From a virus: DNA of 58,296 bases. Positions within the stretch are counted from its first letter, which is position 1. Each line of letters begins with the position of its first letter. The notes under the pieces were generated by a model. The model was not told the DNA's origin, did not search any database, and saw only the letters and a list, made by a program, of their open reading frames with translations. The stretch is taken from positions 1 to 58,296 of the IMG/VR virus record IMGVR_UViG_3300042889_002114; one strand, given 5' to 3'. Positions 46,656-57,598 of the stretch are shown here, one piece after another. A program made the translations under genes and the position numbers.

Positions 46656-46692
46656 GCGCGGTCGACAGGAGGTGGTTCCTGCCAGGTCTCCG
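46656..46692 (+). pseudogene. tRNA 5' half before the GIY-YIG gene
   Basis: Acceptor strand GCGCGGT, a D-arm (CAGGA..TCCTG) and the 5' anticodon stem, broken off in the anticodon loop where CTAAATA begins. No matching 3' half (ACCGCGC) found in the window. Confidence 0.65.
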
Positions 46693-46699
46693 CTAAATA
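46692..46699 (+). promoter_or_regulatory. Late promoter box at the tRNA break point
   Basis: GCTAAATA, starting exactly where the tRNA half ends. Confidence 0.6.
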
Positions 46700-46704
46700 C
46701 TGGT

Positions 46705-47259
46705 ATGCGATATACCATTTACAAAATCACGAATTTGCTCAACGGTAAGTTCTATATCGGGAAGCACCAAACCTCTAATCCACTTGATGGATATTTTGGT
46801 TCGGGGCGGGCACTGAAGAGTGCCATCAAGCTTCACGGTAAAGAGAACTTCACCAAAGAGATACTCTTCGAGTTTGACTCAGAAGAGGAAATGAATGCCA
46901 AGGAGCGCGATCTCATTACCCTAGAGTTGGTTAATGATCCAGCATCCTATAACATGGCAGTTGGTGGTGAAGGTGGTCCTCACTTCAAAGGGCGACAACA
47001 TTCATCGGAAACCAAAGAACGAATTAGCCAGAGCTTAACAGGAAAGCAAGCCGCCTCGGTGTCCGAAGAGACCCGAGCAAAGCTTTCGGAGAAGAGCAAG
47101 GGTAACAAAAGTAAAACTGGTCAACAGACCTCGGAAGAGGTTAAGGCTAAGATAGCCAAGTCAATGACCGGTAAGAAACACAGTGAAGAAACCAAACAGA
47201 AGCTGCGAGAAGCTCGTTTGAGAACACTGGACAAGTCGCGGGTAGGACAAGACAGTTAG
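46705..47259 (+). CDS. GIY-YIG homing endonuclease with NUMOD3 repeats
   Basis: 184 residues from ATG 46705, six bases after a late box; the frame opens earlier inside the tRNA half. The catalytic domain begins YTIYKITNLLNGKFYIGKH (GIY-YIG) with E near residue 75. The C-terminal part holds three NUMOD3-like DNA-binding repeats (HSSETKERISQSLTGK type). The stop lies inside the D-loop of the next tRNA-Met gene. Confidence 0.9.
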   Translation: MRYTIYKITNLLNGKFYIGKHQTSNPLDGYFGSGRALKSAIKLHGKENFTKEILFEFDSEEEMNAKERDLITLELVNDPASYNMAVGGEGGPHFKGRQHSSETKERISQSLTGKQAASVSEETRAKLSEKSKGNKSKTGQQTSEEVKAKIAKSMTGKKHSEETKQKLREARLRTLDKSRVGQDS

Positions 47260-47314
47260 TCGCCAGCCTCATAAGCTGGATATCTGGTAGTTGCGAGCAC
47301 TACACCCGCTCCCA
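47238..47314 (+). tRNA. tRNA-Met(CAT) copy 1, atypical T-loop
   Basis: Anticodon loop CTCATAA with stem CAGC/GCTG. T-stem GTAGT/ACTAC closes loop TGCGAGC (G55 in place of U55). Six-pair acceptor. Its first 22 bases are coding sequence of the GIY-YIG gene. Could be elongator Met or a CAT-Ile tRNA. Confidence 0.8.
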
Positions 47315-47318
47315 TTCC

Positions 47319-47341
47319 AAGCTGGAGATGACAACCAGCTT
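47319..47341 (+). terminator. Hairpin between tRNAs
   Basis: AAGCTGG and CCAGCTT around AGATGACAA, then TATA. Could be a processing site. Confidence 0.5.
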
Positions 47342-47344
47342 TAT

Positions 47345-47419
47345 ACCACTGTACGCATCTGGTGAGGCGACTCCCCTGTCACGGGAATGAGGCGGGTTCG
47401 ATTCCCGTCAGTGGTGCCA
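47345..47419 (+). tRNA. tRNA-Asp(GTC) copy 1
   Basis: Acceptor ACCACTG/CAGTGGT, anticodon loop CTGTCAC, T-loop TTCGATT. Confidence 0.93.
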
Positions 47420-47427
47420 ACTTCTCT

Positions 47428-47504
47428 GCCCGTATCGTTCTTCTGGAGAGGTCACCTGCTCGACACGCAGGGTTAGGTGAGTTCGATTCTCACTGCGGGC
47501 ACCA
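47428..47504 (+). tRNA. tRNA-Val(GAC), C33
   Basis: Acceptor GCCCGTA/TGCGGGC. Stem CCTGC/GCAGG closes TCGACAC, so the base before the GAC anticodon is C. T-loop TTCGATT, A73, CCA. Confidence 0.88.
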
Positions 47505-47517
47505 ACAAGTCATTCAT

Positions 47518-47591
47518 GGCTCGCGCGATGGAGTCGCGGCTGATCCTTACAAGATCGGCGTCACAGGGTTCGATTCCCTGACGGGCTACCA
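47518..47591 (+). tRNA. tRNA-Val(TAC)
   Basis: Anticodon loop CTTACAA within GATC/GATC, T-arm CAGGG-TTCGATT-CCCTG. Acceptor is imperfect (GGCTCGC/ACGGGCT). Confidence 0.85.
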
Positions 47592-47597
47592 AATACT

Positions 47598-47672
47598 GGA
47601 CTGGGGTCCCCATGGTGGGGAAGCACACTCTTAATGTGCCCGTCGAGGGTTCGATCCCCTCCTAGTCCTCCA
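47598..47672 (+). tRNA. tRNA-Lys(CTT) copy 1
   Basis: Acceptor GGACTGG/CTAGTCC, anticodon loop CTCTTAA, T-loop TTCGATC. Confidence 0.93.
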
Positions 47673-47679
47673 ACATCAC

Positions 47680-47756
47680 GGACCTGTAGCACAATTGGTA
47701 GTTGCGGGGGCCTCTTAAGCCCTAGGTTGTCGGTTCGACCCCGACCAGGTTCACCA
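47680..47756 (+). tRNA. tRNA-Lys(CTT) copy 2
   Basis: Acceptor GGACCTG/CAGGTTC, anticodon loop CTCTTAA, T-loop TTCGACC, A73. Confidence 0.95.
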
Positions 47757-47782
47757 AAGACCTAGCTCTGCTAGGCACTAAC

Positions 47783-47865
47783 GGGAAGGTAAAGCCGATG
47801 GTTTCGGCAGGCAGTCTGTAAAACTGCTCTTTCGGGGAGTGGATCGTAACCGCACCTTCCCACCA
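47783..47865 (+). tRNA. tRNA-Tyr(GTA), A54/T58 T-loop
   Basis: Acceptor GGGAAGG/CCTTCCC, stem GCAGT/ACTGC with loop CTGTAAA, variable arm TCTTTCGGGGA. The T-loop is ATCGTAA: A54 and T58 replace the usual T54 and A58. Confidence 0.92.
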
Positions 47866-47869
47866 ATAT

Positions 47870-47952
47870 GCACCAGTAACCGAGAGTCATATGGGTATGG
47901 CGGGAGGCTTTTAATCTCCTGGTAGGGGGATCGTAACCTCACTGGTGTGCCA
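47870..47952 (+). tRNA. tRNA-Lys(TTT), A54/T58 T-loop
   Basis: Acceptor GCACCAG/CTGGTGT, stem GGAGG/TCTCC with loop CTTTTAA. T-loop ATCGTAA on a four-pair T-stem. The D-region is longer than usual. Confidence 0.85.
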
Positions 47953-47964
47953 ATAAAATCAAAT

Positions 47965-48035
47965 GGCTAGGGTACTGGGTACGCGAGACTCTCATAAGGT
48001 CTTGTTGCCGGGATCGTAACCCGGACTAGCCTCCA
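47965..48035 (+). tRNA. tRNA-Met(CAT) copy 2, A54/T58 T-loop
   Basis: Acceptor GGCTAG/CTAGCC, anticodon loop CTCATAA with stem AGACT/GGTCT. The T-stem CCGGG/CCCGG is perfect and closes ATCGTAA, so the odd loop is not an alignment error. Confidence 0.88.
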
Positions 48036-48039
48036 ACAT

Positions 48040-48116
48040 GCCCGCGTGACGTAACTGGTAAACGTGTCACGCTTAGACCGTGAATTCTGGAGGTTCGAAT
48101 CCTCTCGCGGGCACCA
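48040..48116 (+). tRNA. tRNA-Leu(TAG) with short variable loop
   Basis: Acceptor GCCCGCG/CGCGGGC, stem TCACG/CGTGA with loop CTTAGAC (TAG), T-loop TTCGAAT. Leucine tRNAs normally have a long variable arm; this has only ATTCT. Confidence 0.85.
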
Positions 48117-48123
48117 AAGCTGA

Positions 48124-48154
48124 TGGAGATTAGTGTAGCTGGTAACATACCGCA
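48124..48154 (+). pseudogene. tRNA-Gln 5' half before a homing gene
   Basis: TGGAGAT, TA and the D-arm GTGTAGCTGGTAACAT match the intact tRNA-Gln at 48773 closely. It ends at ACTAAATA, where the homing gene unit begins. Confidence 0.7.
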
Positions 48155-48161
48155 CTAAATA
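48154..48161 (+). promoter_or_regulatory. Late promoter box at the tRNA break point
   Basis: ACTAAATA, with ATG 48166 four bases after it. Confidence 0.65.
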
Positions 48162-48165
48162 CAGT

Positions 48166-48768
48166 ATGATCATACAGCTCAAAAACAAATCATTGGTCCT
48201 TGAAGACCTGCAGAAATACTATGATGAAGGTCATAGTGTTGCGGCAACTGCCAAAGAGTTTGGTATTTCAAGTAGAACATTGATGAGGTTAAAAGCTAGT
48301 CACGGGTTTGTAACCAGGGACAAGTCAGCTGCATTGGTAGTATCCAATGCAAAGTATCCTAGAACCTTCAGCGAAGCTCAACGTGGTGTGCTTAGAACTC
48401 ACATGGAACGTCGGCTTGCTAATGGAACATATCCAACTCTTGGTAGGTCAAATCGGAAGATCGGGAAGCCATCATATCCGGAGACCTTCTTCAAGGAAGT
48501 GATCGAAAACGAGTTTACAGACAAACGCTACGAGGCGGAACATCCATTTGGATCCTTCTCCTTAGATTTTGCCTGGTTGCACTTGAAGAAGTGCATTGAG
48601 ATTGACGGTGAACAACATTTTGCTTCGCAAGAAGCGATTGATCGTGACTGTCGAAAAGATGCTTTCCTCGCCACAAACGGCTGGAAAGTATTTAGAATAC
48701 GGTGGAAGGATTTCTACAAAGATCCAAAGCCGCTCATCCTTCTTGTGAAGCAATTCATAGAAGAATGA
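48166..48768 (+). CDS. Vsr/DUF559-like homing endonuclease
   Basis: 200 residues. An N-terminal helix-turn-helix (LQKYYDEGHSVAATAKEFGI.. SSRTLMRLKASHGFVTR) resembles the other tRNA-borne enzymes. The C-terminal nuclease is of the Vsr/DUF559 type: SFSLDFAW, KKCIEIDGEQHF, DRDCRKDAFLATNGWKVFRI. Such EDxHD/PD-(D/E)XK proteins are a known class of phage homing enzymes. It ends four bases before tRNA-Gln(CTG). Confidence 0.85.
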   Translation: MIIQLKNKSLVLEDLQKYYDEGHSVAATAKEFGISSRTLMRLKASHGFVTRDKSAALVVSNAKYPRTFSEAQRGVLRTHMERRLANGTYPTLGRSNRKIGKPSYPETFFKEVIENEFTDKRYEAEHPFGSFSLDFAWLHLKKCIEIDGEQHFASQEAIDRDCRKDAFLATNGWKVFRIRWKDFYKDPKPLILLVKQFIEE

Positions 48769-48772
48769 TTAT

Positions 48773-48847
48773 TGGAGATTGGTGTAAACGGTAACATCGA
48801 CGCCTCTGAAGCGTTTGTCCTAGGTTCGAACCCTAGATCTCCAGCCA
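48773..48847 (+). tRNA. tRNA-Gln(CTG)
   Basis: Acceptor TGGAGAT/ATCTCCA, stem GACGC/GCGTT with loop CTCTGAA, T-loop TTCGAAC. Confidence 0.95.
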
Positions 48848-48860
48848 ACTAGTCATTCAT

Positions 48861-48934
48861 TGGGGAATGGTGTAAAGGTAGCATAACTGACTTTGAATCA
48901 GTTGGATCACGTTCGATACGTGGTTCCCCAGCCA
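48861..48934 (+). tRNA. tRNA-Gln(TTG)
   Basis: Acceptor TGGGGAA/TTCCCCA, anticodon loop CTTTGAA, T-loop TTCGATA. Confidence 0.93.
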
Positions 48935-49013
48935 ATAGGCCTTAGAGGATTTAGGGGATTAGGCACCCCACACCGGGATCACGAAAGTGACCGCATCTAC
49001 GGTTCCTCACTAT

Positions 49014-49085
49014 GCTGTTGTGGGGTGGCTCTCACGCTTGGTTGTGTCCCAGGTGGTTTCGGTTCGACTCCGAACAACAGTACCA
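49014..49085 (+). tRNA. tRNA-His(GTG) copy 1
   Basis: Stem CTTGG/CCAGG closes loop TTGTGTC (GTG). Acceptor GCTGTTG/CAACAGT with A73 and T, not G, at -1. T-loop TTCGACT. A73 without G-1 is the histidine variant of many Alphaproteobacteria. Confidence 0.82.
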
Positions 49086-49092
49086 ATATCAT

Positions 49093-49130
49093 GCGTCTAT
49101 AGCTCAATGGTAGAGCCACTGCCTTGGTCA
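49093..49130 (+). pseudogene. tRNA-Gly 5' half, interrupted
   Basis: GCGTCTA, TA, D-arm GCTCAATGGTAGAGC and CACTGCCTTGG, stopping in the anticodon loop. Its acceptor matches the 3' half at 49774-49812 (TAGACGC). The ACTGCCTTG part matches tRNA-Gly(GCC). Confidence 0.75.
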
Positions 49131-49138
49131 ACTAAATA
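49131..49138 (+). promoter_or_regulatory. Late promoter box at the tRNA break point
   Basis: ACTAAATA, with ATG 49143 four bases later. Confidence 0.65.
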
Positions 49139-49142
49139 GAGT

Positions 49143-49712
49143 ATGATCAAGAAGATATTTAATTGGCCCGAGATCCAAGCTTTTTACGATACTGGTAACA
49201 GTAGCGGAAAAACTGCCAAGCAATTTGGAATGTCAGGTAAAACTTTGTTCCTCGCGGCAAAACGTGGTGATTTTGTTACTCGATCCAGAAGTGAGGCGGC
49301 GACGGTTGGTTCAACAACCCGTCCACCTCATTCTCAGGTCACCAAAGACAAGTTGAGTAAGATTGCTTCCGACAGAGAATTTGGTGGCAAGAACTACCGT
49401 AAAACTTTCCCCTACAAGGGCGTTGTGTTGGAGAGCTCATACGAGCTTGCACTTGCACAAGAACTTGATGGTGAGGGTATTGCTTGGGTGCGTCCCAAGC
49501 GTTTCTACTGGACTGATGACACTGGTAGGCGTAGACACTACACACCAGACTTCTTCCTTCCAGACTACGGGATTTATCTAGATCCCAAAAACGACTACCT
49601 GATCAAGATAGATAGTGATAAGATCAACCGAGTGATGTTACAAAATGACATACGGGTGTTGGTGTTGTCTAAGAGTCAACTGTCCTGGTCATACATTGCA
49701 TCTGTAGTATAG
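49143..49712 (+). CDS. PD-(D/E)XK homing endonuclease
   Basis: 189 residues, same family as the genes at 44466 and 56933. N-terminal HTH (IQAFYDTGNSSGKTAKQFGM, SGKTLFLAAKRGDFVTRSRS), then YELALAQE, HYTPDFFLP and IYLDPK catalytic strands. The last five codons are also the first 15 bases of tRNA-Gly(TCC). Lies between the two halves of a broken tRNA-Gly. Confidence 0.87.
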   Translation: MIKKIFNWPEIQAFYDTGNSSGKTAKQFGMSGKTLFLAAKRGDFVTRSRSEAATVGSTTRPPHSQVTKDKLSKIASDREFGGKNYRKTFPYKGVVLESSYELALAQELDGEGIAWVRPKRFYWTDDTGRRRHYTPDFFLPDYGIYLDPKNDYLIKIDSDKINRVMLQNDIRVLVLSKSQLSWSYIASVV

Positions 49713-49772
49713 TGGCTATTATGTTTGGCTTCCAACCAGAAGATGTGGGTTCGATTCCCACCAGATGCTCCA
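49698..49772 (+). tRNA. tRNA-Gly(TCC)
   Basis: Acceptor GCATCTG/CAGATGC, anticodon loop CTTCCAA, T-loop TTCGATT, T73. Overlaps the homing gene 3' end by 15 bases. Confidence 0.95.
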
Positions 49773-49773
49773 A

Positions 49774-49812
49774 GGAATGGCTAGCAGGGTTCGATCCTCT
49801 CTAGACGCTCCA
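49774..49812 (+). pseudogene. tRNA-Gly 3' half, interrupted
   Basis: T-arm CAGGG-TTCGATC-CTCTC and acceptor TAGACGC with TCCA. It pairs exactly with GCGTCTA at 49093, 0.7 kb upstream, across a homing gene and a complete tRNA. Confidence 0.7.
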
Positions 49813-49819
49813 ACTTTAT

Positions 49820-49895
49820 CCTGGCAAAGTCTTTGCGGTGGAGGCGCTGGTTTGTGGAGCCGGATGGCTAGGTTCGAATCCTAGTGCCAGGACCA
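49820..49895 (+). tRNA. tRNA-His(GTG) copy 2
   Basis: Acceptor CCTGGCA/TGCCAGG, A73, T at -1. Stem CTGGT/GCCGG closes TTGTGGA. T-arm CTAGG-TTCGAAT-CCTAG. Confidence 0.82.
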
Positions 49896-49902
49896 AGTTT
49901 AT

Positions 49903-49976
49903 GCGAATATAGCTCAAGGGTAGAGCAGAGCGTTGCCAACGCTCCGATAGGGGTTCGAATCCCCTTATTCGCTCCA
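49903..49976 (+). tRNA. tRNA-Gly(GCC) copy 2
   Basis: Acceptor GCGAATA/TATTCGC, anticodon loop TTGCCAA, T-loop TTCGAAT, T73. Confidence 0.96.
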
Positions 49977-49983
49977 ACACAAT

Positions 49984-50059
49984 GCGGCATTAGTATATTG
50001 GTTGATTGCATCACCTTGCCATGGTGAGAAGATGGGTTCGATTCCCATATGCCGCTCCA
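49984..50059 (+). tRNA. tRNA-Gly(GCC) copy 3
   Basis: Acceptor GCGGCAT/ATGCCGC, anticodon loop TTGCCAT, T-loop TTCGATT, T73. Confidence 0.95.
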
Positions 50060-50221
50060 AAGACGTTGTACGAAGCAGGGCTGCAAACCCTGAGCGAGAG
50101 GCCTTTAATGCGCGGGACAGTCTATCCCGAGAACTGTGAACAGCTTCACGGCGGGGGCCAAGAACCCCTAGTAGCATAGGAGAGGCGGAGTGGGGTGTGG
50201 ATACCCATTGCAAAGGAATAT
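50060..50221 (+). ncRNA. Structured inter-tRNA region with a Cys-type anticodon hairpin
   Basis: No ORF. CAGGG/CCCTG (50076-50092) closes the 7-base loop CTGCAAA, a perfect tRNA-Cys(GCA) anticodon arm, but no acceptor or T-arm belongs to it. Further stems follow (GGGG/CCCC, TGGG/CCCA). Confidence 0.4.
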
Positions 50222-50297
50222 GTGTAGTTGGTGAAGCTGGAGCTCACATTGGCTTGAAACCCCAAAGAACTAGGTTCGATCCCTAGACTACACACCA
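50222..50297 (+). tRNA. tRNA-Phe(GAA) copy 1
   Basis: Acceptor GTGTAGT/ACTACAC, anticodon loop TTGAAAC, T-loop TTCGATC. One mismatch at 31-39. Confidence 0.88.
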
Positions 50298-50445
50298 AGT
50301 TCTCCTAGGAGGACGGAGCCTACTTACGCCCTAGGCTCGTAAAATATGGAGACGTTCTGCACTGTGGAGCGTTGGGACCTCGCAGCGCCGGGCGGCCAGT
50401 TCGTAAGGAACAAGTAGCTCATTACCTGGAAGGGGCAGGTTACCG
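50298..50445 (+). other. Structured intergenic region, no gene seen
   Basis: About 150 bases with GAGCCTA/TAGGCTC (50316-50339) and a GC-rich stem region. A TATAAT (50448-50453) follows and probably helps drive the next gene. Confidence 0.4.
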
Positions 50446-50506
50446 ATTATAATGGTTGCGCGTTTCTAGTTGGCAACATAGAGTGCTTTTTTAACAGGAG
50501 CACCAC

Positions 50507-50827
50507 ATGAACCAGCAACAAGGTTTTCTCGCGCACGCCGACGGCACGATTGCCGGACTGAAGTCCCAGCAAGTTGCGATCGAATATCGCAAGACGATCT
50601 GCCCCAAGGACCAAGTCGAGATCCTCGACCTGGACGTGGCGCGCCTGCAACGCGAGATTGACCGGCTGGTCATCATCCGCACTGACGTTGAGTCCAAGCT
50701 GAGCAAGGAAGAGATCGCCCAGTATGAAGCGTCGCGGGTCAAGCCCAAGACGGAACTCGAGAAGCGCGCCGAGATTGAAGAAATGAATCGGCGCATGAAC
50801 GAGAACAAGGACCGGCCGGGGATCTAA
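50507..50827 (+). CDS. Coiled-coil protein (106 aa)
   Basis: ATG 50507 with AGGAG. GC-rich codons unlike the tRNA flanks. Helical with heptads (QVEILDLDVARLQREIDRLV, EIEEMNRRMNEN). Unknown function; probably an accessory protein expressed from the TATAAT promoter upstream. Confidence 0.65.
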   Translation: MNQQQGFLAHADGTIAGLKSQQVAIEYRKTICPKDQVEILDLDVARLQREIDRLVIIRTDVESKLSKEEIAQYEASRVKPKTELEKRAEIEEMNRRMNENKDRPGI

Positions 50828-50839
50828 TCCCCTGCCTAT

Positions 50840-50962
50840 GTGAAGGTAGTGTGAGGACGTGCTAGGATGCAGGGGACCGGAAAACTCTGCAGGGGATCAC
50901 GGACGGGATAACACAACGGGGAGGACCCGGAGATGTTGGTTCAAATCCAACCCTTTACACCA
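50840..50962 (+). tRNA. tRNA-like gene with large D-loop insertion
   Basis: Acceptor GTGAAGG/CCTTTAC with ACCA, and a perfect T-arm GTTGG-TTCAAAT-CCAAC. D-stem GTGT/ACAC encloses about 59 bases, with inner stem CGTG/CACG and flanking AGGAC..GGAC motifs, where a normal D-loop has 8-10. The anticodon arm is unclear (CGGG-GAGGA-CCCG). Confidence 0.55.
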
Positions 50963-50969
50963 ACTACAT

Positions 50970-51071
50970 CGAGAGGTAGTTTAAGGACGCGACGGGGTCG
51001 ACACCAAGCGGACTGGTAAAATGGGCGTGTGAGAACGTCAGATGTAGGCTCGAAACCTTCCCTCTCGGCCA
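50970..51071 (+). tRNA. tRNA-like gene with D-loop insertion
   Basis: Acceptor CGAGAGG/CCTCTCG with GCCA. After TA-GTTT comes AGGACGCG..AGCGGAC and then CTGGTAAAA, the normal end of a D-arm, so about 28 extra bases sit in the D-loop. Anticodon hairpin GGCGT/ACGTC with loop GTGAGA (perhaps GAG). T-loop CTCGAAA. Confidence 0.55.
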
Positions 51072-51072
51072 T

Positions 51073-51148
51073 GTACCTGTAGCTCAGTTGGTAGAGCAAC
51101 GCACTGAAAATGCGTGTGTCGGTGGTTCGAGTCCACCTAGGTGCACCA
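51073..51148 (+). tRNA. tRNA-Phe(GAA) copy 2
   Basis: Stem ACGCA/TGCGT closes CTGAAAA; T-arm GGTGG-TTCGAGT-CCACC; A73, CCA. Confidence 0.95.
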
Positions 51149-51174
51149 ATACCAAAATCCACCCTTTGAGGTGG

Positions 51175-51250
51175 CACCCAGGGTGGGTGGTTAACGTGAA
51201 GCGGGGTTCGATGCCCTAAACGATCGGGTTCGACTCCCCTTCGTGCTTGG
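51175..51250 (+). pseudogene. Two overlapping tRNA 3' fragments
   Basis: Two T-arm-like segments (GCGGGG-TTCGATG-CCC and CGGG-TTCGACT-CCCC) lie 30 bases apart without complete tRNAs. Degenerate copies. Confidence 0.5.
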
Positions 51251-51271
51251 CTGCAATATCGTTAATGAAAC

Positions 51272-51347
51272 GGGGTATGCTCTGGGTTAAGCGGATTAGT
51301 TTTGCAAACTGATTGTCTGAAGGGTTCGATTCCCTTATATTCCACCA
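51272..51347 (+). tRNA. tRNA-Ala(TGC) copy 2
   Basis: Acceptor GGGGTAT/ATATTCC with G3-T70, stem TTAGT/ACTGA closing TTTGCAA, T-loop TTCGATT. Confidence 0.9.
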
Positions 51348-51409
51348 ACGAGCCGAAGACAATGGGTTATCTTTTGCTGATAAACACCCACCGTCATTTA
51401 CTTGCTCGT
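51348..51409 (+). ncRNA. Inter-tRNA RNA closed by ACGAGC/GCTCGT
   Basis: Starts right after the CCA of tRNA-Ala. ACGAGC (51348-51353) pairs with GCTCGT (51404-51409); inside are TGGG/CCCA and GTTATC/GATAAAC stems. No ORF. Confidence 0.45.
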
Positions 51410-51415
51410 TACCAT

Positions 51416-51490
51416 GGCGCATTAGTTCACTGGCTAGAATACCGCTCTTTCACAGCGGGGAAACGAGATCGATACTCGTATGCGTCACCA
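51416..51490 (+). tRNA. tRNA-Glu(TTC) copy 1, A54 T-loop
   Basis: Acceptor GGCGCAT/ATGCGTC, stem CCGCT/AGCGG closing CTTTCAC. T-arm ACGAG-ATCGATA-CTCGT: A54 with A58. Confidence 0.9.
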
Positions 51491-51494
51491 ACAT

Positions 51495-51568
51495 GCTTCT
51501 GCCGGCGGATTCCGGCATTTGGACTTCTAATCCGAAATGCGAGGGTTCGACTCCTTCCAGAAGCGCCA
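51495..51568 (+). tRNA. tRNA-Arg(TCT)
   Basis: Acceptor GCTTCTG/CAGAAGC, stem TTGGA/TCCGA closing CTTCTAA, T-loop TTCGACT. Confidence 0.93.
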
Positions 51569-51606
51569 AGCATTTCATATGCCTCTGATGATGGATTTCA
51601 TACCCC

Positions 51607-51679
51607 GACCTTGCCAACGGATTTTGGCCCCGACGCTTCGAACGTCAGGTATCGAGTTCGACTCTCGACAGGGTCTCCA
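51607..51679 (+). tRNA. tRNA-Arg(TCG)
   Basis: Acceptor GACCTTG/CAGGGTC, stem GACG/CGTC closing CTTCGAA, T-arm TCGAG-TTCGACT-CTCGA. Confidence 0.92.
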
Positions 51680-51687
51680 ACCATATT

Positions 51688-51759
51688 GTCTCCGCTAGTG
51701 GATCTAGTCTGTTCCCTGCGAAGGAAGAGAAGCCTGTTCGACTCAGGCCGGAGACGCCA
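51688..51759 (+). tRNA. tRNA-Arg(GCG) copy 1
   Basis: Acceptor GTCTCCG/CGGAGAC, loop CTGCGAA, T-arm GCCTG-TTCGACT-CAGGC. Bacteria usually read CGC with ACG (inosine), so GCG is a phage-style choice. Confidence 0.88.
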
Positions 51760-51766
51760 ATTAAAT

Positions 51767-52452: not shown

Positions 52453-52460
52453 TATTTAGC
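52453..52460 (-). promoter_or_regulatory. Reverse late promoter box at the tRNA break point
   Basis: Reverse-strand GCTAAATA, four bases before the homing gene ATG. Confidence 0.6.
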
Positions 52461-52498
52461 GAAACCGAAAATCTAGGTTCGATCCCTAGTGGAACCGC
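52461..52498 (+). pseudogene. tRNA 3' half beside the reverse homing gene
   Basis: Starts in the anticodon loop (GAAA), then CCGAA, a T-arm CTAGG-TTCGATC-CCTAG and acceptor strand TGGAACC. No 5' half adjoins it. Confidence 0.6.
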
Positions 52499-52748
52499 TT
52501 AATCGGAGACACCCACAGGCCCTAGGGCTCGTGACGTGAGCTTGGCGCTAGAGGGCTTACCGCGTGTAGCGGATGAGTCCGGAGTGGGAGTGTGGAAACC
52601 CACCGATTGAAGATACTCCTTGTAAATGACCCTTCCTAGTCCGGTTGCAAACGGACGACGTGGGAGGCAGTTTAGATGAGCGGACTTGCGGCGTTTGGAG
52701 CCGAGGTAGTCTAGGAGCCGGGTGAGGAAACCGGCCTTGGAGCATAAT
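52499..52748 (+). ncRNA. Structured inter-tRNA RNA with a Cys-type loop
   Basis: About 250 bases, no ORF, many stems. GTCCG/CGGAC (52639-52656) closes an 8-base loop GTTGCAAA. Ends at tRNA-Ala(GGC). Possibly a leader or small RNA. Confidence 0.4.
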
Positions 52749-52823
52749 GGGCTGTTAGTGATAACGGTAGCACGGGACAATGGCATTGTCTTAGCAGGGG
52801 TTCGATTCCCCTACAGTCCACCA
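52749..52823 (+). tRNA. tRNA-Ala(GGC)
   Basis: Acceptor GGGCTGT/ACAGTCC with G3-T70, loop ATGGCAT, T-loop TTCGATT. Confidence 0.92.
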
Positions 52824-52836
52824 ACTGATATTCTTT

Positions 52837-52910
52837 GGCCCATTAGTTTAATGGTAGAATACCGCCCTCTCACGGCGTCAGCAGGGGTTCGATTCCCCTA
52901 TGGGTCACCA
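52837..52910 (+). tRNA. tRNA-Glu(CTC)
   Basis: Acceptor GGCCCAT/ATGGGTC, stem CGCC/GGCG closing CTCTCAC, T-loop TTCGATT. Confidence 0.93.
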
Positions 52911-53014
52911 ACTACTACCTCACGGAGGTGGTGCTTTAGAGACGCTCCCGCTTTGTTTGGAGCCAGGGAAACCTGTGGCGGTCTCGGAGGGGAATGTGGA
53001 CCTCCCCAGTAGTT
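52910..53014 (+). ncRNA. Inter-tRNA RNA, four-way junction fold
   Basis: AACTACT/AGTAGTT close the element. Inside are three arms: CCTC/GAGG, GAGAC/GTCTC (holding CAGG-GAAA-CCTG) and GGAGG/CCTCC. Overall shape is cloverleaf-like but there is no anticodon loop or T-loop. Confidence 0.5.
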
Positions 53015-53020
53015 GAATAT

Positions 53021-53096
53021 GGCGCATTAGTTTATAGGGTGAAAATACTGGGCTTTCAATCCGGAGTGGTGGGTTCGATCCCCACATGCGTCGCCA
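53021..53096 (+). tRNA. tRNA-Glu(TTC) copy 2
   Basis: Acceptor GGCGCAT/ATGCGTC, loop CTTTCAA, T-arm GTGGG-TTCGATC-CCCAC. Confidence 0.93.
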
Positions 53097-53102
53097 AACT
53101 TG

Positions 53103-53131
53103 TTGACACTCTGGAGACAGGGTGTTACATT
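53103..53131 (+). promoter_or_regulatory. Early-type promoter (TTGACA-17-TACATT)
   Basis: TTGACA 53103-53108 and TACATT 53126-53131, ahead of the TGA-containing gene. Confidence 0.7.
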
Positions 53132-53189
53132 GATTCTACCAACTAGTCCCTCCCTGTAGCTGTTTCTAGCAACAGAAGGAGATAAGACG

Positions 53190-53450
53190 ATGAAGGTATA
53201 TGTGGTTCTGCACAATAACTGGCAACACTACGAAGGTGGTGGAGCGGAGATTGTTTCGATTCATGCTTCCACGAACTGAGCGTTGGCGGAAGTCAAAGCT
53301 CAGTTCGTGGAACTGAATAAAAATCGCTACTCGTATCAACCCGAGTATGTGATGGTGGATCGTGAAAACGAGTCCGATTGTTGGTACTACCAGGAAACTG
53401 GTGGGGCTGACTATTGGTACTCCATCGAGGAACACAAGATTGAGGACTAG
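53190..53450 (+). CDS. Small gene with an in-frame TGA at codon 30
   Basis: ATG 53190 follows AGAAGGAG and a good early promoter. After 29 codons (ending HASTN) comes TGA (53277-53279), then 56 more codons in the same frame ending at TAG 53448. Both parts read like real protein: MKVYVVLHNNWQHYEGGG and ALAEVKAQFVELNKNRYSY, DCWYYQETGGADYWYSIEE. Options: read-through or recoding of TGA, a recent nonsense mutation (for example from CGA or TGG), or a sequence error. TGG is used for Trp elsewhere, so general recoding is unlikely. Confidence 0.6.
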
Positions 53451-53463
53451 GAAACTGGTCCTC
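53442..53463 (+). terminator. Hairpin at the end of the TGA gene
   Basis: GAGGAC/GTCCTC around TAGGAAACTG, overlapping the stop codon; no strong T tract. Confidence 0.5.
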
Positions 53464-53626
53464 CGATCTAATACTCTGGTATGCAGTAACCAAAGCATAC
53501 TCCCGCCACACGGGAAACGTGGCCCTGCATGACTCCGGCAATCGGTAGTGGAGGAATTTCATCCCCTTGATGCAAAGGGGGTCGGCACGGGTATGATGGC
53601 ACTCTACGTTAGTGAGCCCATTAGTC
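53464..53626 (+). other. Structured intergenic region, no gene seen
   Basis: About 160 bases of short stems. Open frames here run into tRNA-Asn and are not genes. Confidence 0.4.
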
Positions 53627-53655
53627 GGGTGGGGATGGTACCCCACCCGCTTTTC
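53627..53655 (+). terminator. Rho-independent terminator
   Basis: GGGTGGGG/CCCCACCC around ATGGTA, followed by GCTTTT. Confidence 0.75.
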
Positions 53656-53731
53656 CTAGCTAGTCATCTTGGTGATGGCGCTCCGCTGTTAACGGAGATT
53701 GAGCTCAGTTCGAATCTGAGGCTAGGAGCCA
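53654..53731 (+). tRNA. tRNA-Asn(GTT) copy 3
   Basis: Acceptor TCCTAGC/GCTAGGA, stem CTCCG/CGGAG closing CTGTTAA, T-loop TTCGAAT. Confidence 0.95.
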
Positions 53732-53773
53732 ATAATATAGACGCCATCGAAGCAGTAATGCTTTACTCTGGAA

Positions 53774-54196
53774 ATGAACTTTCGAGGCGTCAAGGATTCA
53801 ACCTTTGTTTGTGGGTTTTGTGAGAAGTCTTTCTCTTGGAGAGGCTACTCCACCTCCCACAAGTTTTGTTCTACAGACTGTGCTCACTCTAACAGGGTGA
53901 AGATGACTAGAGAACGAGACGACGCGCTCTTCGATACTGGCCAGTTAACAAGTCGGCCATCAATCTACCAAATACTTGTTACCCGTCGTGGTAACAAGTG
54001 TGAGAGTTGTAATATTCAAGACTGGATGGGCAAAGCAATCCGATTTTGGGTCGACCACATTGATGGGTGTGCAACCAATAATGATCCATCAAACTTGAGA
54101 TTGGTCTGTCCCAACTGTGATAGTCAATCTGCCACATTCGGTGGTAAAAATAGAGGTAGTGGCCGTAAGTCCCTAGGGCTTGCGCCATACAGTTAA
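53774..54196 (+). CDS. HNH homing endonuclease with zinc finger
   Basis: 140 residues. N-terminal zinc finger (CGFCEKSF, KFCSTDC), then an HNH core: RRGNKCESC, FWVDHIDGC, NLRLVCPNCDSQ. No late box immediately upstream, unlike the other homing genes; it sits between tRNA-Asn and tRNA-Asp. Free-standing intergenic nuclease. Confidence 0.85.
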   Translation: MNFRGVKDSTFVCGFCEKSFSWRGYSTSHKFCSTDCAHSNRVKMTRERDDALFDTGQLTSRPSIYQILVTRRGNKCESCNIQDWMGKAIRFWVDHIDGCATNNDPSNLRLVCPNCDSQSATFGGKNRGSGRKSLGLAPYS

Positions 54197-54201
54197 ACAA
54201 T

Positions 54202-54277
54202 CCCCTCGGACCCAGCTGGTGACGGGAGCCGCTTGTCAGGCGGATGCGGGCGAGTTCAATTCTCGTCGAGGGGGCCA
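54202..54277 (+). tRNA. tRNA-Asp(GTC) copy 2
   Basis: Acceptor CCCCTCG/CGAGGGG, loop TTGTCAG, T-arm GCGAG-TTCAATT-CTCGT. Confidence 0.93.
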
Positions 54278-54403
54278 ACTTAGAGCCGATTGATTCGGGT
54301 TATCTTTCTGTGAAAAAGCGATGGAGGGTTCGATTCCCTTGCCGGGGCTCACGCCTTGGTCCTTGGATGGCTGGCAACGTCCGGTTCTCCACTTGCTCTA
54401 AGT
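54278..54403 (+). ncRNA. Inter-tRNA RNA closed by a 9-bp stem, with tRNA-like core
   Basis: ACTTAGAGC (54278-54286) pairs with GCTCTAAGT (54395-54403). Inside lie an anticodon-like hairpin (CTTT-CTGTGAA-AAAG) and a T-arm (GAGGG-TTCGATT-CCCTT), but no D-arm or CCA end. Begins at the CCA of tRNA-Asp. Confidence 0.5.
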
Positions 54404-54407
54404 CTTT

Positions 54408-54490
54408 AGTTCTGTAGCTCAGTGGCCAGAGCATTCCTGTGTATCGCTACGCTGGGAAGGGCCAGAGGTTCGAATCCTCTCAGAACTGCT
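54408..54490 (+). tRNA. tRNA-like gene with extended anticodon arm
   Basis: Acceptor AGTTCTG/CAGAACT, D-arm GCTCAGTGGCCAGAGC and T-arm AGAGG-TTCGAAT-CCTCT are perfect. The anticodon arm is a long hairpin, TTCC/GGAA continued by GTGTA/TACGC with tetraloop TCGC, leaving no 7-base loop. The 3' end is GCTA, not CCA. Confidence 0.6.
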
Positions 54491-54492
54491 AA

Positions 54493-54561
54493 ACGGGCCG
54501 ATTTGTAAGGGTTATTGCATATGAAGCCGATGGCGGGAGTTCGATTCTCCCACCCCCGACC
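54493..54561 (+). pseudogene. tRNA with lost D-arm, 3' part intact
   Basis: T-arm GGGAG-TTCGATT-CTCCC and acceptor ACCCCCG with ACCA. The 5' region resembles 54285 onward (GCCGATT..GGGTTAT). Its acceptor strand fits perfectly with CGGGGGT just downstream (54576). Confidence 0.5.
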
Positions 54562-54575
54562 AACACGTTAGACCT

Positions 54576-54606
54576 CCGGGGGTTAGTTTAATGGTAGAAC
54601 AGCGAA
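54576..54606 (+). pseudogene. tRNA 5' half located after its complement
   Basis: CGGGGGT, TA and a canonical D-arm GTTTAATGGTAGAAC, followed by no anticodon arm. Its 7-base acceptor complements ACCCCCG at 54551-54557, in permuted order. Confidence 0.5.
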
Positions 54607-54638
54607 AAACGTCCTTGCTACCACTTGCCCGTTTTATT

Positions 54639-54728
54639 GGATAGTAGACCAGGTGGGACCTGGCGGCGCCTGGAAAGCGTCTGGAGCCCTTTACCGGGCT
54701 TGTGGATCGAGACCACTGCTGTCCGCCA
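54639..54728 (+). tRNA. tRNA-Ser(GGA), A54 T-loop
   Basis: Class II. Acceptor GGATAGT/GCTGTCC, stem GGCGC/GCGTC closing CTGGAAA, variable arm AGCCC/GGGCT, T-loop ATCGAGA. Confidence 0.9.
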
Positions 54729-54734
54729 ACTCAT

Positions 54735-54825
54735 GGAGAGTTAAGCAGAGCGGCCTCTGCACCTGCCTCGAAAACAGTGTGTGCCCGTAGAACGGCATGG
54801 GAATCGACATCTCAGCTCTCCGCCA
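54735..54825 (+). tRNA. tRNA-Ser(CGA), A54 T-loop
   Basis: Class II. Acceptor GGAGAGT/GCTCTCC, loop CTCGAAA, variable arm GCC/GGC, T-stem TGGGA/TCTCA closing ATCGACA. Confidence 0.88.
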
Positions 54826-54831
54826 ATAAAT

Positions 54832-54935
54832 GGGCCAGAACCCTGTGGACTTAGATCCACTTACCGTGAAAGTCGGTGGAGGTATGGAGACGGGAGTAGC
54901 TCTCCCATGCGGGTTCAAATCCCCACTGGTCCACT
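54832..54935 (+). tRNA. tRNA-like class II gene, anticodon unresolved
   Basis: Acceptor GGGCCAG/CTGGTCC, T-loop TTCAAAT, a variable-arm hairpin (GGGAG/CTCCC). Two inner hairpins compete: GTGGA-CTTAGA-TCCAC (TAG-like) and ACCG-TGAAAGT-CGGT. At 104 nt it is too long, perhaps with an inserted arm. 3' end ACTA. Confidence 0.5.
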
Positions 54936-54941
54936 AAACCT

Positions 54942-55029
54942 TGGATGGTTAAACGGGGAGGTCCCCGTACCTGTTTGCTAAACAGTGGGTGCCGAAAGGC
55001 ATGGGTTTCGAGTACTCAGCCATCCGCCA
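54942..55029 (+). tRNA. tRNA-Ser(GCT) copy 2
   Basis: Class II. Acceptor GGATGGT/GCCATCC, loop TTGCTAA, variable arm TGCC/GGCA, T-loop TTCGAGT. Confidence 0.93.
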
Positions 55030-55030
55030 A

Positions 55031-55126
55031 CGTACGAGCCGACCGAGAACGAAACCATCGTCCGGAACCTCGGTCTAATCCCGGTCAACCCTAGCAAGCT
55101 ACTAGGGCGAAGGGGGTGCTCGTACG
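55031..55126 (+). ncRNA. Inter-tRNA RNA closed by CGTACGAGC/GCTCGTACG
   Basis: A 9-bp perfect closing stem (55031-55039 with 55118-55126). Inside are ACCGAG/CTCGGT and CCCTAG/CTAGGG hairpins. It fills the gap between tRNA-Ser and tRNA-Pro. Confidence 0.55.
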
Positions 55127-55139
55127 CCCAATACATCAT

Positions 55140-55213
55140 CAGGGTGTAAGATAGTGGTAGTCGCGAACCCTCGGACGGTGCGAGTGCTGGTTCGATTCCA
55201 GCTACCCTGACCA
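55140..55213 (+). tRNA. tRNA-Pro(CGG)
   Basis: Acceptor CAGGGTG/TACCCTG, loop CTCGGAC, T-arm GCTGG-TTCGATT-CCAGC, A73, CCA. Confidence 0.93.
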
Positions 55214-55228
55214 CTGACTAAGTATCGA

Positions 55229-55236
55229 ACTAAATA
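55229..55236 (+). promoter_or_regulatory. Late promoter box, leaderless GIY-YIG gene
   Basis: ACTAAATA, four bases before ATG 55241. Confidence 0.65.
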
Positions 55237-55240
55237 GAGT

Positions 55241-55897
55241 ATGTTCTACTTGGTCTATAAAATCACCAACACGGTGAATGGTAAAATCTACATCGGCGCC
55301 CATAAGACTGCTGATGTAAATGACAACTATATGGGATCTGGTTCCATCTTGAAGATGGCCCAAGAGAAATATGGCACGTCAAACTTCACCAAAGAGATTC
55401 TGTTTGTCTTCAGCTCACCAGAAGAGATGTTCCTTATGGAAGCTCAACTGGTCAATGAAGACTTTGTATCTAGAGCAGATACCTACAACCTAAAAGAGGG
55501 TGGTACCGGTGGCTTTGGCTTCATTCACCAACACAATCTACACCTTAATGGGGTTCCCAACTTCACAAAGGACAATGCCAAGGCGTTAAGCATCAAAGGT
55601 AACGGGAGGAAGGAAATCCTCCATGCTACTGATCCAGAGTGGAGGCAGAGATACTTGGACAGAATGTCCAAGTCCATGCGCGGCCATCAAGGTTTCCTGG
55701 GTAAGACCCATAGTGCTGAGACACTAGAAAAGATGCGGCAGGCTAAAACTGCTCATGGTTTAGGAAAGAACAATTCGCAATTCGGCTCCTTCTGGATCTA
55801 TAATGAGACTACTGGAGAATCCTGTAAAACCAAGGGTGATATCCCGGAAGGTTGGATTCGTGGTCGAAAGATAGGAACCCGAAGAAATGATCTTTGA
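55241..55897 (+). CDS. GIY-YIG homing endonuclease
   Basis: 218 residues. Catalytic start FYLVYKITNTVNGKIYIGAH, Glu in FLMEAQLVN near residue 69, and a C-terminal NUMOD3-like motif (GKTHSAETLEKMRQAK). Related to the copy at 46705. Here the unit lies after a complete tRNA-Pro, not in a visible tRNA half. Confidence 0.9.
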   Translation: MFYLVYKITNTVNGKIYIGAHKTADVNDNYMGSGSILKMAQEKYGTSNFTKEILFVFSSPEEMFLMEAQLVNEDFVSRADTYNLKEGGTGGFGFIHQHNLHLNGVPNFTKDNAKALSIKGNGRKEILHATDPEWRQRYLDRMSKSMRGHQGFLGKTHSAETLEKMRQAKTAHGLGKNNSQFGSFWIYNETTGESCKTKGDIPEGWIRGRKIGTRRNDL

Positions 55898-56147
55898 AAA
55901 AGTTGAAGTCACAGAACATCAGTTTAGCACAATCAAAAATGACTATGATTTGAAAATCATGTTCAGAAGTGGTGGATGGCCATCAGATGATGAACAATAT
56001 CTTGGCATGATTGAGCTCAGACTAGATTGTGGCAATAGCCTACTCACCGATTCAGTCAATGACTGCCTTAGATTGACTAAAGAAGATGCCATCCTTCAAC
56101 TTCGAAGGGCAGCTGATTTTCTAGAATCAGAACTAAACGGGGAGTGA
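55887..56147 (+). CDS. Hypothetical acidic protein (86 aa)
   Basis: Overlaps the GIY-YIG end by 11 bases. Alpha/beta with strands YDLKIMFRSGG and MIELRLDCG and a C-terminal helix. May travel with the homing gene or be the older resident gene. Unknown function. Confidence 0.55.
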   Translation: MIFEKVEVTEHQFSTIKNDYDLKIMFRSGGWPSDDEQYLGMIELRLDCGNSLLTDSVNDCLRLTKEDAILQLRRAADFLESELNGE

Positions 56148-56157
56148 TCCCCACAAT

Positions 56158-56232
56158 GGGCCCTTAGTGGTAATGGTAAAACGACGCTTTCGCACGGCGT
56201 AGATAAGGGTTCGATTCCCTTAGGGTCCACCA
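56158..56232 (+). tRNA. tRNA-Ala(CGC)
   Basis: Acceptor GGGCCCT/AGGGTCC with G3-T70, stem ACGCT/GGCGT closing TTCGCAC, T-loop TTCGATT. Confidence 0.92.
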
Positions 56233-56282
56233 ATATAATCAGCTCATCGGGGTAGGATCAGCTGGGTAAGACAACCTATCAT

Positions 56283-56357
56283 CAGGGTAGGATCGGCAAG
56301 TGAAGAGGTCACGCTTGGAACGTGGCAGGCCAGGAGCGTTACCTGGTACCCTGACCA
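56283..56357 (+). tRNA. tRNA-Pro(TGG), A54/T58 T-loop
   Basis: Acceptor CAGGGTA/TACCCTG, stem CACG/CGTG closing CTTGGAA. A perfect T-stem CCAGG/CCTGG closes AGCGTTA, again A54 with T58, and G55. Confidence 0.85.
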
Positions 56358-56362
56358 ACATA

Positions 56363-56389
56363 TTGACTAGTAGTTCTGTTCACTATAAG
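56363..56389 (+). promoter_or_regulatory. Early-type promoter for RNA B
   Basis: TTGACT 56363-56368 and TATAAG 56384-56389, 15-base spacing. Confidence 0.5.
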
Positions 56390-56395
56390 ATGTGT

Positions 56396-56580
56396 TTAGT
56401 TCTCGGACTTAAACCGAGTGGCGAGGATGAGAAATCATTCCCGACGTTCTTGGACGTAAACCAAGTGGTGGAGCGCCTTGAATCTTGGTTCACGGCTCCA
56501 GTCCTGGCAGGGGACTTTAACTCTGCCCACAATACGGCGGGATCAAGGCGGCAGTCTCATGGGGTGACCCTGTAGCAACG
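56396..56580 (+). ncRNA. Structured RNA B (candidate)
   Basis: Follows a promoter and precedes tRNA-Trp. Two hairpins of the same kind, CTCGG-ACTTAAA-CCGAG and CTTGG-ACGTAAA-CCAAG, each followed by TGG, match the hairpin in RNA A at 45.9 kb. A 61-codon frame also runs through here from ATG 56390, so coding is not excluded. Confidence 0.45.
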
Positions 56581-56596
56581 GCCTCCCGTGCGTTAT

Positions 56597-56671
56597 AGGG
56601 GTGTAGTAAAGTGGCCTATACACCGGTCTCCAAAACCGAGCATGGGGGTTCGATTCCCTCCACCCTTGCCA
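56597..56671 (+). tRNA. tRNA-Trp(CCA)
   Basis: Acceptor AGGGGTG/CACCCTT, stem CCGGT/ACCGA closing CTCCAAA, T-loop TTCGATT, G73. Confidence 0.93.
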
Positions 56672-56679
56672 AATAGATC

Positions 56680-56736
56680 TTACGAAGGCCTGGGGTGTGG
56701 TTGAAAGATGGGCCCCTTGGACTCGAGACTTCGTGA
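56680..56736 (+). ncRNA. Inter-tRNA RNA closed by an 8-bp stem
   Basis: TTACGAAG pairs with CTTCGTGA (one G-T) around a GC-rich hairpin (GGGGTG..GGGCCCC region). Another closed element directly after a tRNA. Confidence 0.4.
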
Positions 56737-56789
56737 GTAAAGGTGTAGCTGCCCTCGACACAACTAAAGGCGCACCAATAATTTCCCAT

Positions 56790-56880
56790 AGGGGTGGGAC
56801 TGGCGATCGGATTCCAAACCCGATGACGTTTAACCTAAGCCAGTGGTAGTCTACGGGTTCAATTCCTGCCACCCTTGCCA
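56790..56880 (+). tRNA. Rearranged tRNA-like gene (CCA anticodon hairpin)
   Basis: Same acceptor as the tRNA-Trp before it (AGGGGTG/CACCCTT) and a T-loop TTCAATT. The hairpin ATCGG-(A)TTCCAAA(C)-CCGAT carries CCA, but it lies inside an ACTGGC/GCCAGT stem, and after GTGGTAGTC there is no room for another anticodon arm. Either an insertion in the D-loop or an internal rearrangement. Confidence 0.5.
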
Positions 56881-56887
56881 ACTCAAT

Positions 56888-56921
56888 GGTCCTATAGCTT
56901 AATGGCAGAGCCCTCCGCTTG
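56888..56921 (+). pseudogene. tRNA 5' half before a homing gene (Thr-like)
   Basis: GGTCCTA, TA, D-arm GCTTAATGGCAGAGC, then CTCCGCTTG broken at the anticodon. CTTG would fit a TGT (Thr) loop. It ends at GCTAAATA. Confidence 0.65.
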
Positions 56922-56928
56922 CTAAATA
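56921..56928 (+). promoter_or_regulatory. Late promoter box at the tRNA break point
   Basis: GCTAAATA, with ATG 56933 four bases later. Confidence 0.65.
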
Positions 56929-56932
56929 CGGC

Positions 56933-57574
56933 ATGAACCGTAAACGTAAATATGACTACCAACAGATCCAAGAACTGTATGACAGTGGTTTTTCAATTAA
57001 GATTACCTGTAAAATTTCAGGTATGTCACCGGCTAGATTCAATGCTCTTGTAAAGCAAGGATTTCTTGTTACTAGGACACAATCAGAAGCCGCTATACTT
57101 ACTGGAGGATCAGGCTTTTGTTCTCCTGATTATGTGGGTTCTGAGAAACATAGACAGTCCTCGGCAAAGGGTGGTGGATATAAAGAGCGAGCGGGACGTT
57201 CCAAGGGTGCATTCCGTATAGACGGCTATGGTGTCAAAACCTGGCTACAATCAAGCTATGAGACGCAACTAGCAGATATCATGACGCAAAATGATATTCT
57301 ATGGTGTCGCCCCAAAGCACTCTCCTATAATGATGGAGATCGGGATAGGAAATACTATCCTGATTTCTTCCTTCCAGACTATGATTTGTATCTGGATACG
57401 AAGAACGACTACTTGGCTAAAGTGGACGCGGGTAAGATTGAACTGGTTCGAAACCAACATGGTATTCAACTGTTCATCATCACGCAGAAGCAAATCACAC
57501 TGGAGTATCTCCAGTCATTATGGTCTCATCGTACAATGGCTCAGTACGCTCGGCTGATAACCGGGAAATCGTAG
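56933..57574 (+). CDS. PD-(D/E)XK homing endonuclease
   Basis: 213 residues, third member of the family with 44466 and 49143. HTH-like start (IQELYDSGFSIKITCKISGM.. FLVTRTQSEAA), then YETQLADI, KYYPDFFLP and LYLDTK. The last ~17 codons (HRTMAQYARLITGKS) are also the sequence of tRNA-Ile up to its variable loop, so protein and tRNA share DNA. Confidence 0.87.
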   Translation: MNRKRKYDYQQIQELYDSGFSIKITCKISGMSPARFNALVKQGFLVTRTQSEAAILTGGSGFCSPDYVGSEKHRQSSAKGGGYKERAGRSKGAFRIDGYGVKTWLQSSYETQLADIMTQNDILWCRPKALSYNDGDRDRKYYPDFFLPDYDLYLDTKNDYLAKVDAGKIELVRNQHGIQLFIITQKQITLEYLQSLWSHRTMAQYARLITGKS

Positions 57575-57598
57575 GTTCAATTCCTCGTGGGACTACCA
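57522..57598 (+). tRNA. tRNA-Ile(GAT) copy 2, overlaps homing gene
   Basis: Acceptor GGTCTCA/TGGGACT, stem TCGG/CCGG closing CTGATAA, T-loop TTCAATT. Its first 53 bases encode the homing enzyme C-terminus. Confidence 0.88.

Follow-up and report, generated by a model that had tools for sequence, protein, structure and literature searches.

Nuclease genes inserted at the anticodon loops of phage tRNA genes, usually beside a same-isotype tRNA: probable homing elements widespread among bacterial viruses

Restriction-fold nucleases at tRNA anticodon loops have a precedent in I-Ssp6803I, a PD-(D/E)XK homing endonuclease encoded by a group I intron of a tRNA-fMet gene. In this report, we analyzed a fragment of a large phage (IMG/VR record IMGVR_UViG_3300042889_002114; all 58,296 nt, hereafter the window) in which nuclease genes are flanked on one side by a broken tRNA gene (X) and on the other by a complete tRNA (Y), the latter overlapping or adjoining the 3' end of the nuclease gene; unlike I-Ssp6803I, which sits in a self-splicing intron, these units contain none. 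The nearest phage case is SegB of T4, a free-standing GIY-YIG homing endonuclease with a predicted late promoter, which acts on tRNA genes and favors inheritance of the tRNA region (PMC2988022, PMC13096335). Many of its cuts fall in tRNA genes at RAWTSGAAC, a motif that looks like the T arm and not like the anticodon loop. SegB resembles the units in being a phage homing endonuclease acting on tRNA genes with a predicted late promoter, but its gene occupies the space between tRNA-Arg and tRNA-Ile without splitting any tRNA, and it supplies no replacement. The nearest mechanism is that of fungal mitochondrial mobile open reading frames (ORFs) (Allomyces atp6; Glomus atp6, atp9, cox2 and nad3), in which a homing endonuclease interrupts an important gene and supplies a diverged version of the part that it cuts off (PMC3630166). 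These concern mitochondrial protein genes and a fused C terminus, whereas the phage units interrupt a tRNA gene and usually supply a whole isoacceptor tRNA. The nearest engineered design is the synthetic HomeR drive, whose nuclease hits an essential conserved site and whose cassette supplies a functional copy that has been recoded (PMC7968924); HomeR drives are CRISPR constructs in insects, whereas the phage units are a natural arrangement, known here from sequence. Our search of the open-access literature, with subscription papers outside its scope, found no earlier description of anticodon-loop insertion with isoacceptor replacement.

The window holds five nuclease genes set between a broken X and a complete Y, all described in an earlier note made from the sequence alone, and their boxes, genes and tRNA contacts are confirmed by sequence, Pfam, ARAGORN and folding. 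For the degenerate halves the isotypes are tentative, having been assigned by visual inspection of the loop, stem and discriminator. Coordinates are on the plus strand unless stated. At 49143, an orphan tRNA-Gly-like 5' half running GCGTCTA...CTTG (49093–49126; acceptor GCGTCTA, break at about 34|35, as in loci L003-L005 below) precedes a ACTAAATA box (49131–49138), 4 nt from the ATG of a gene for a helix-turn-helix (HTH) plus PD-(D/E)XK-like nuclease (49143–49712; conserved E and PDF..(D/E)xK). Its end is overlapped by a complete tRNA-Gly(UCC) (49698–49772, starting 15 nt before the end of the stop codon), directly behind which lies the orphan 3' half of X (49774–49812); the acceptor of this half, TAGACGC, makes 7/7 pairs with GCGTCTA, so that box, gene and a whole Gly tRNA are nested in another Gly-like tRNA. 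At 48166, a tRNA-Gln 5' half (48124–48153; acceptor TGGAGAT, the same as that of Y) is followed by a ACTAAATA box (48154–48161; ATG 4 nt downstream), an HTH plus DUF559/MTES_1575 nuclease gene (48166–48768; Pfam) and a complete tRNA-Gln(CUG) (48773–48847), 4 nt past the stop codon. At 56933, the same order comprises a tRNA-Ile-like 5' half (56888–56920; break at about 34|35), a GCTAAATA box (56921–56928; ATG 4 nt downstream), an HTH plus PD-(D/E)XK-like nuclease gene (56933–57574; Pfam and conserved motifs) and a complete tRNA-Ile(GAU) (57522–57598) that begins inside the gene, at -53 nt from the stop codon.

The two remaining units depart in part from the plan set out in the earlier note. At 46705, a 5' half that is probably tRNA-Met(CAU) (46656–46690; break at about C34|A35, the closest intact tRNA being MetCAT, a weak match) precedes a GCTAAATA box (46692–46699; ATG 5 nt downstream) and a gene for a 184-amino-acid GIY-YIG plus NUMOD3 nuclease (46705–47259; Pfam), whose end is overlapped by a tRNA-like cloverleaf with a CAU anticodon (47238–47313). 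That each gene end meets a complete tRNA holds outright for the other four genes and is supported here by the fold, ARAGORN and Rfam giving no match at 47238–47313. The closest GIY-YIG kin of 46705 have a Met-like X (L446 and L459), and L446 also has a Met Y, tRNA-Met(CAU). In the inverted unit, a treble-clef plus PD-(D/E)XK-like nuclease gene (51813–52448, minus strand) behind a GCTAAATA box (52453–52460, minus strand; ATG 4 nt downstream) extends 28 nt into a complete tRNA-Arg(GCG) (51765–51840). Its half is a 3' half (52459–52498) that begins at the GCG anticodon; Y and half are both Arg(GCG).

The arrangement is real and widespread among bacterial viruses. We searched 2.9 million IMG/VR viral contigs with a pattern that assumes nothing about the gene, TAGCTCARY-N0..1-GGTAGAGC-N8..24-TAAATA (a looser D-arm pattern, nearly all of whose matches were chance ones, was dropped in favor of it). 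This gave 116 matches, 112 of them orphan 5' tRNA halves outside any intact tRNA. From 52 of these halves the sequence runs into a closed ORF of at least 95 amino acids, yielding 38 distinct proteins, nearly all nuclease-like; the proteins behind orphan halves match HNH, NUMOD3, GIY-YIG/SegE, DUF559, Phage_endo_I and zinc fingers. For 43 of the 52 ORFs, a complete tRNA starts between -60 and +60 nt from the stop codon, and 32 of these tRNAs begin inside the gene. Among the matches listed for cellular genomes, intact tRNAs make up 97/120, and such an ORF follows just two of the orphans. About 58 viral orphan halves lack an ORF of at least 95 amino acids (L317, L320 and similar loci), and some of these recur across many contigs, such as a tRNA-Val-like half followed by CCAATATAAATACA.

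The two tRNAs of a unit match in isotype far above chance. With the isotype of X taken as that of the nearest intact tRNA to the orphan half, drawn from other loci only and without use of Y, it equals that of Y in 29 of 45 units; the mean under shuffling is 6.7 (standard deviation 2.3), with a maximum of 17 in 20,000. Y is usually self-consistent (6.9/7 acceptor pairs), and the acceptor of X pairs with the 3' strand of Y no better than with that of control tRNAs (3.54 against 3.50), which argues that most Y are whole tRNAs and not chimeras. The idea that Y generally arose by fusion of a carried 5' half to the 3' half of X, as a chimera, was considered and rejected, as it holds for L003-L005 and L396 only; in L003-L005, the 5' half of Y (GCGGAGT) mismatches the acceptor strand ACCCCGC, with which the orphan half (GCGGGGT) pairs fully. 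The 3' half of X persists behind Y in L299 and L408, where the acceptors covary (GCCCGAT...ATCGGGT and GCCCGGT...ACCGGGT), as well as in L390 (GCCCAGG...CCTGGGC), L303/L363 and the window's own 49143 unit. The 5' halves of Y are also farther from same-isotype tRNAs than those of ordinary tRNAs (median score 38 vs 49, p=1e-6). Some carried tRNAs are odd in shape, including the Y tRNA-Thr of L318 and L021, with for example a long variable arm.

Relatives that lack the nuclease gene, the comparison proposed in the earlier note, have an uninterrupted tRNA at the corresponding sites. In L003-L005, the nuclease gene is preceded by the half GCGGGGTTCGTATAGTGGTAATACCTTAG...CTT, and an exact search for this half found at least 120 further contigs, all those listed carrying an uninterrupted tRNA-Gly(UCC), which places the insertion between U34 and C35. 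Two of the empty loci, L058 and L089, are near-isogenic partners of L005, close on both sides, and the joined flanks of L005, once the element is removed, align to them gap-free at the site. In other occupied/empty pairs, the tRNA at the empty site has the isotype and anticodon of Y: Ile(UAU) in L465/L332 (97.6%), Ile(GAU) in L042/L188 (95%) and Gly(UCC) in L007/L066 (about 82%). L314 and L366 are reciprocal, each being occupied where the other is empty, at Thr(AGU) and Gly(GCC) (76–80%). Cultured phages provide further cases. Escherichia phage PhaxI and Salmonella phage dinky share the same tRNA-Met 5' half in flanks that are 99.6% identical, and PhaxI has, in order, dinky's tRNA-Met 5' half, a nuclease gene and a different complete tRNA-Met(CAU). 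In Aeromonas phages AsFcp_1, AsFcp_2 and PX29, a nuclease gene splits, at CUCA|UAA, a tRNA-Met that is whole in Aeh1 and avDM12. At the PX29/Aeh1 locus, Aeromonas phage Ah1 (L427, 1132–1206) carries a tRNA-Met whose acceptor stem is the same and whose body is wholly different, possibly a resistant or post-insertion allele. In PhaxI (L428, 654–689), a perfect 12-bp hairpin, AAGTAATACC...GGTATTACTT, ends just before the nuclease ATG and could stop translation; translation-blocking hairpins have been described for some T4 homing genes.

By their defining features, the units are free-standing homing endonuclease genes, a known kind: each is an ORF with a site-specific nuclease domain (GIY-YIG, DUF559/MTES_1575, PD-(D/E)XK-like or HNH) outside any intron or intein, and the same site is found both occupied and empty, in relatives rather than at the window's own sites. 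We consider it likely that phage tRNA genes are their targets, at the anticodon loop, and that Y usually replaces X. The nuclease would cut X in the anticodon arm, and repair from the carrier phage would copy the nuclease gene into the break. The inserted piece would consist, 5' to 3', of often a TAAATA late-promoter box, the nuclease gene and usually a diverged, same-isotype complete Y with its start inside the gene or shortly behind it. Y would then take over from X; because it is recoded outside the anticodon loop, it may also be resistant to the nuclease. Loss of the 3' half of X in most units suggests repair terminating in downstream homology, and a simple split as in AsFcp_1 may represent an early stage or a failed one. 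A more specific proposal is that of a natural home-and-rescue drive, in which several nuclease families (GIY-YIG, HNH/NUMOD, and PD-(D/E)XK with HTH or zinc finger) each target near-immutable anticodon loops and bring along a recoded isoacceptor that resists cleavage and compensates for the broken tRNA; to this we give about even credence.

Several observations weigh against these interpretations. X is decayed or weakly assigned for 46705, 49143 and 44466 (a further gene described below), and no empty allele was found for the window's own unit sites. The 3' half of X is gone in most units, which simple homing does not explain. Y and the target still have a core of 11–12 nt in common (GCCTTCCAAGCT in L003-L005, GACTCATAATC in PhaxI), and resistance would therefore have to come from flanking bases. 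AsFcp_1 and PX29 carry no Y, the nuclease simply splitting tRNA-Met, so that the retention of a spare tRNA claimed in the earlier note applies to most units and is not universal. In Menderavirus phages, nuclease genes lie between intact, unchanged tRNAs, and those of Bhz51, Mendera and Marzo are ordinary insertions between intact tRNAs; the SegB-type arrangement, intergenic with intact tRNAs, is thus found in the Menderavirus relatives, whereas the units studied here have a split X.

The tRNA might instead be a passive neighbor, with nucleases homing into arrays and Y being simply the next tRNA, kept because it overlaps the gene end. Such an overlap would make clean loss of the gene disadvantageous, and in the Menderavirus phages the downstream tRNA is indeed unchanged relative to empty relatives. 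The isotype match of X and Y, the exchange of one tRNA-Met for another at the 99.6% identical PhaxI locus and the location of the 3' half of X behind Y show that in several cases the insertion brought Y along, which makes this explanation unlikely. We rate as improbable, too, that frequent recombination of tRNA arrays at conserved tRNA sequence leaves halves as debris, the nucleases being there by accident or through general breakage. Phage tRNA arrays are rearranged, many tRNAs in the window are degenerate, and nucleases between intact tRNAs, as in Menderavirus, would fit; but orphan D-arm motifs are rare, amounting to 3/164 in 120 empty-allele loci of the L003-L005 type that were not chosen for the purpose, and one of the three is another nuclease unit. 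By this count, the case that the earlier note named as refuting its view, nuclease-free relatives with the same isolated halves, is not borne out. Furthermore, the halves stop in the anticodon arm with box and ORF directly after them and share the isotype of the downstream tRNA, and relatives hold uninterrupted tRNAs at the site. Group I introns or integrase-type elements are very improbable, even if tRNA anticodon loops can harbor group I introns that encode restriction-fold nucleases (I-Ssp6803I) and integrative elements often restore the tRNA, since no group I intron match and no catalytic intron RNA around the ORFs was found within 44300–58296, the gap of about 10–50 nt from X to ATG is too short, Y is a separate complete tRNA, and the units lack both an integrase gene and identical repeats of the att kind, the halves of X and Y being different.

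Homing into tRNA genes with replacement of X thus remains our preferred explanation, and the common capture route keeping one tRNA that the earlier note had suggested is strongly supported by the same-isotype uninterrupted tRNAs of relatives and by the isotype match. Its "three unrelated nuclease types" stand at the family level, because DUF559/MTES_1575 and PD-(D/E)XK may form one restriction-fold superfamily. The genes of the window's units are nucleases by Pfam and conserved motifs (GIY-YIG, DUF559/MTES_1575 and PD-(D/E)XK-like), and HNH is also found. The AlphaFold (AF2) model of the 49143 protein is confident (predicted local distance difference test score, pLDDT, 89), and Foldseek against the PDB gives weak matches only, the best including RecE, T7 endonuclease I and TnsA, which are consistent with a PD-(D/E)XK fold without being proof. 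A scan with 49143 found 50 loci, mostly within tRNA arrays, and single-sequence scans with 48166, 55241 and 51813 found just one or two relatives each.

The box is strongly enriched. RCTAAATA occurs 10 times in the window against 1.6 expected (0/100 shuffles reach 10), and CTAAATA followed by ATG after 3–8 nt occurs eight times against 0.38. A TAAATA box upstream of the gene is a sequence mark of T4-type late promoters, which depend on the phage late sigma factor, and by this sequence feature the boxes in the window and in many relatives are predicted to be such promoters. The distance from TAAATA to ATG is 4–5 nt in the nuclease genes of the array, and 21–33 nt in several other genes of the window; the nuclease messages may therefore start at or near the ATG and be leaderless. 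The earlier note's proposal of a late promoter carried by each unit is in line with the window and with many relatives, with the reservations that the PhaxI unit has no TAAATA box and that outside the window the distance to ATG is often 13–28 nt. TAAATA also occurs directly before tRNA-Arg(gcg) (51762–51767) and upstream of tRNA-Leu(caa) (57988–57993), and tRNAs too may be read from late promoters.

These findings suggest a source for the redundant, odd and broken tRNAs of large phages, whose arrays would be in part a battleground of selfish genes and not a means of codon-usage tuning. The units would be a natural counterpart of home-and-rescue drives, a parasite that breaks a tRNA gene and brings the replacement. 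Cultured phages with occupied and empty sites are available (PhaxI vs dinky-type Kutterviruses; PX29/AsFcp_1 vs Aeh1). A word of caution is that tRNA-finding programs overlook the halves and score replacement tRNAs as ordinary genes.

Three features of the window were absent from the earlier note. The first is probably a further unit of the same plan, of Ala type and with decayed halves: a GATAAATA box 5 nt before the ATG of a PD-(D/E)XK-like nuclease gene (44466–45053), a complete tRNA-Ala(UGC) (45067–45141) and, after it, a tentative Ala-like 3' half of X (45142–45178), the unit being tentative because its 5' half is decayed. A 14-nt direct repeat, GATAAATAGGAACA, flanks this gene at 44453–44466 (spanning box and start) and 45049–45062 (at the stop). 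The second is a variant (55229–55897) with a ACTAAATA box and a GIY-YIG gene (55241–55897), in which an intact tRNA-Pro lies upstream, there is no tRNA half, and a tRNA-Ala(CGC) lies 260 nt past the gene, beyond a second ORF. The third is an HNH gene outside the tRNA array (42525–42935), where CTAAATA precedes an internal ATG by 4 nt. Of the 39 tRNAs called by ARAGORN in the window, 36 fall within 45–58.3 kb, and megablast of the array DNA against cultured phages gave no matching phage in the collection searched. Inside the array, an ORF (57688–57966) resembles the N-terminal part of elongation factor Ts (PF00889, E 5.5e-7), and elsewhere in the window IF-3-like (2255–2788) and ClpX-like (962–2206) genes were labeled by eye from their translations.

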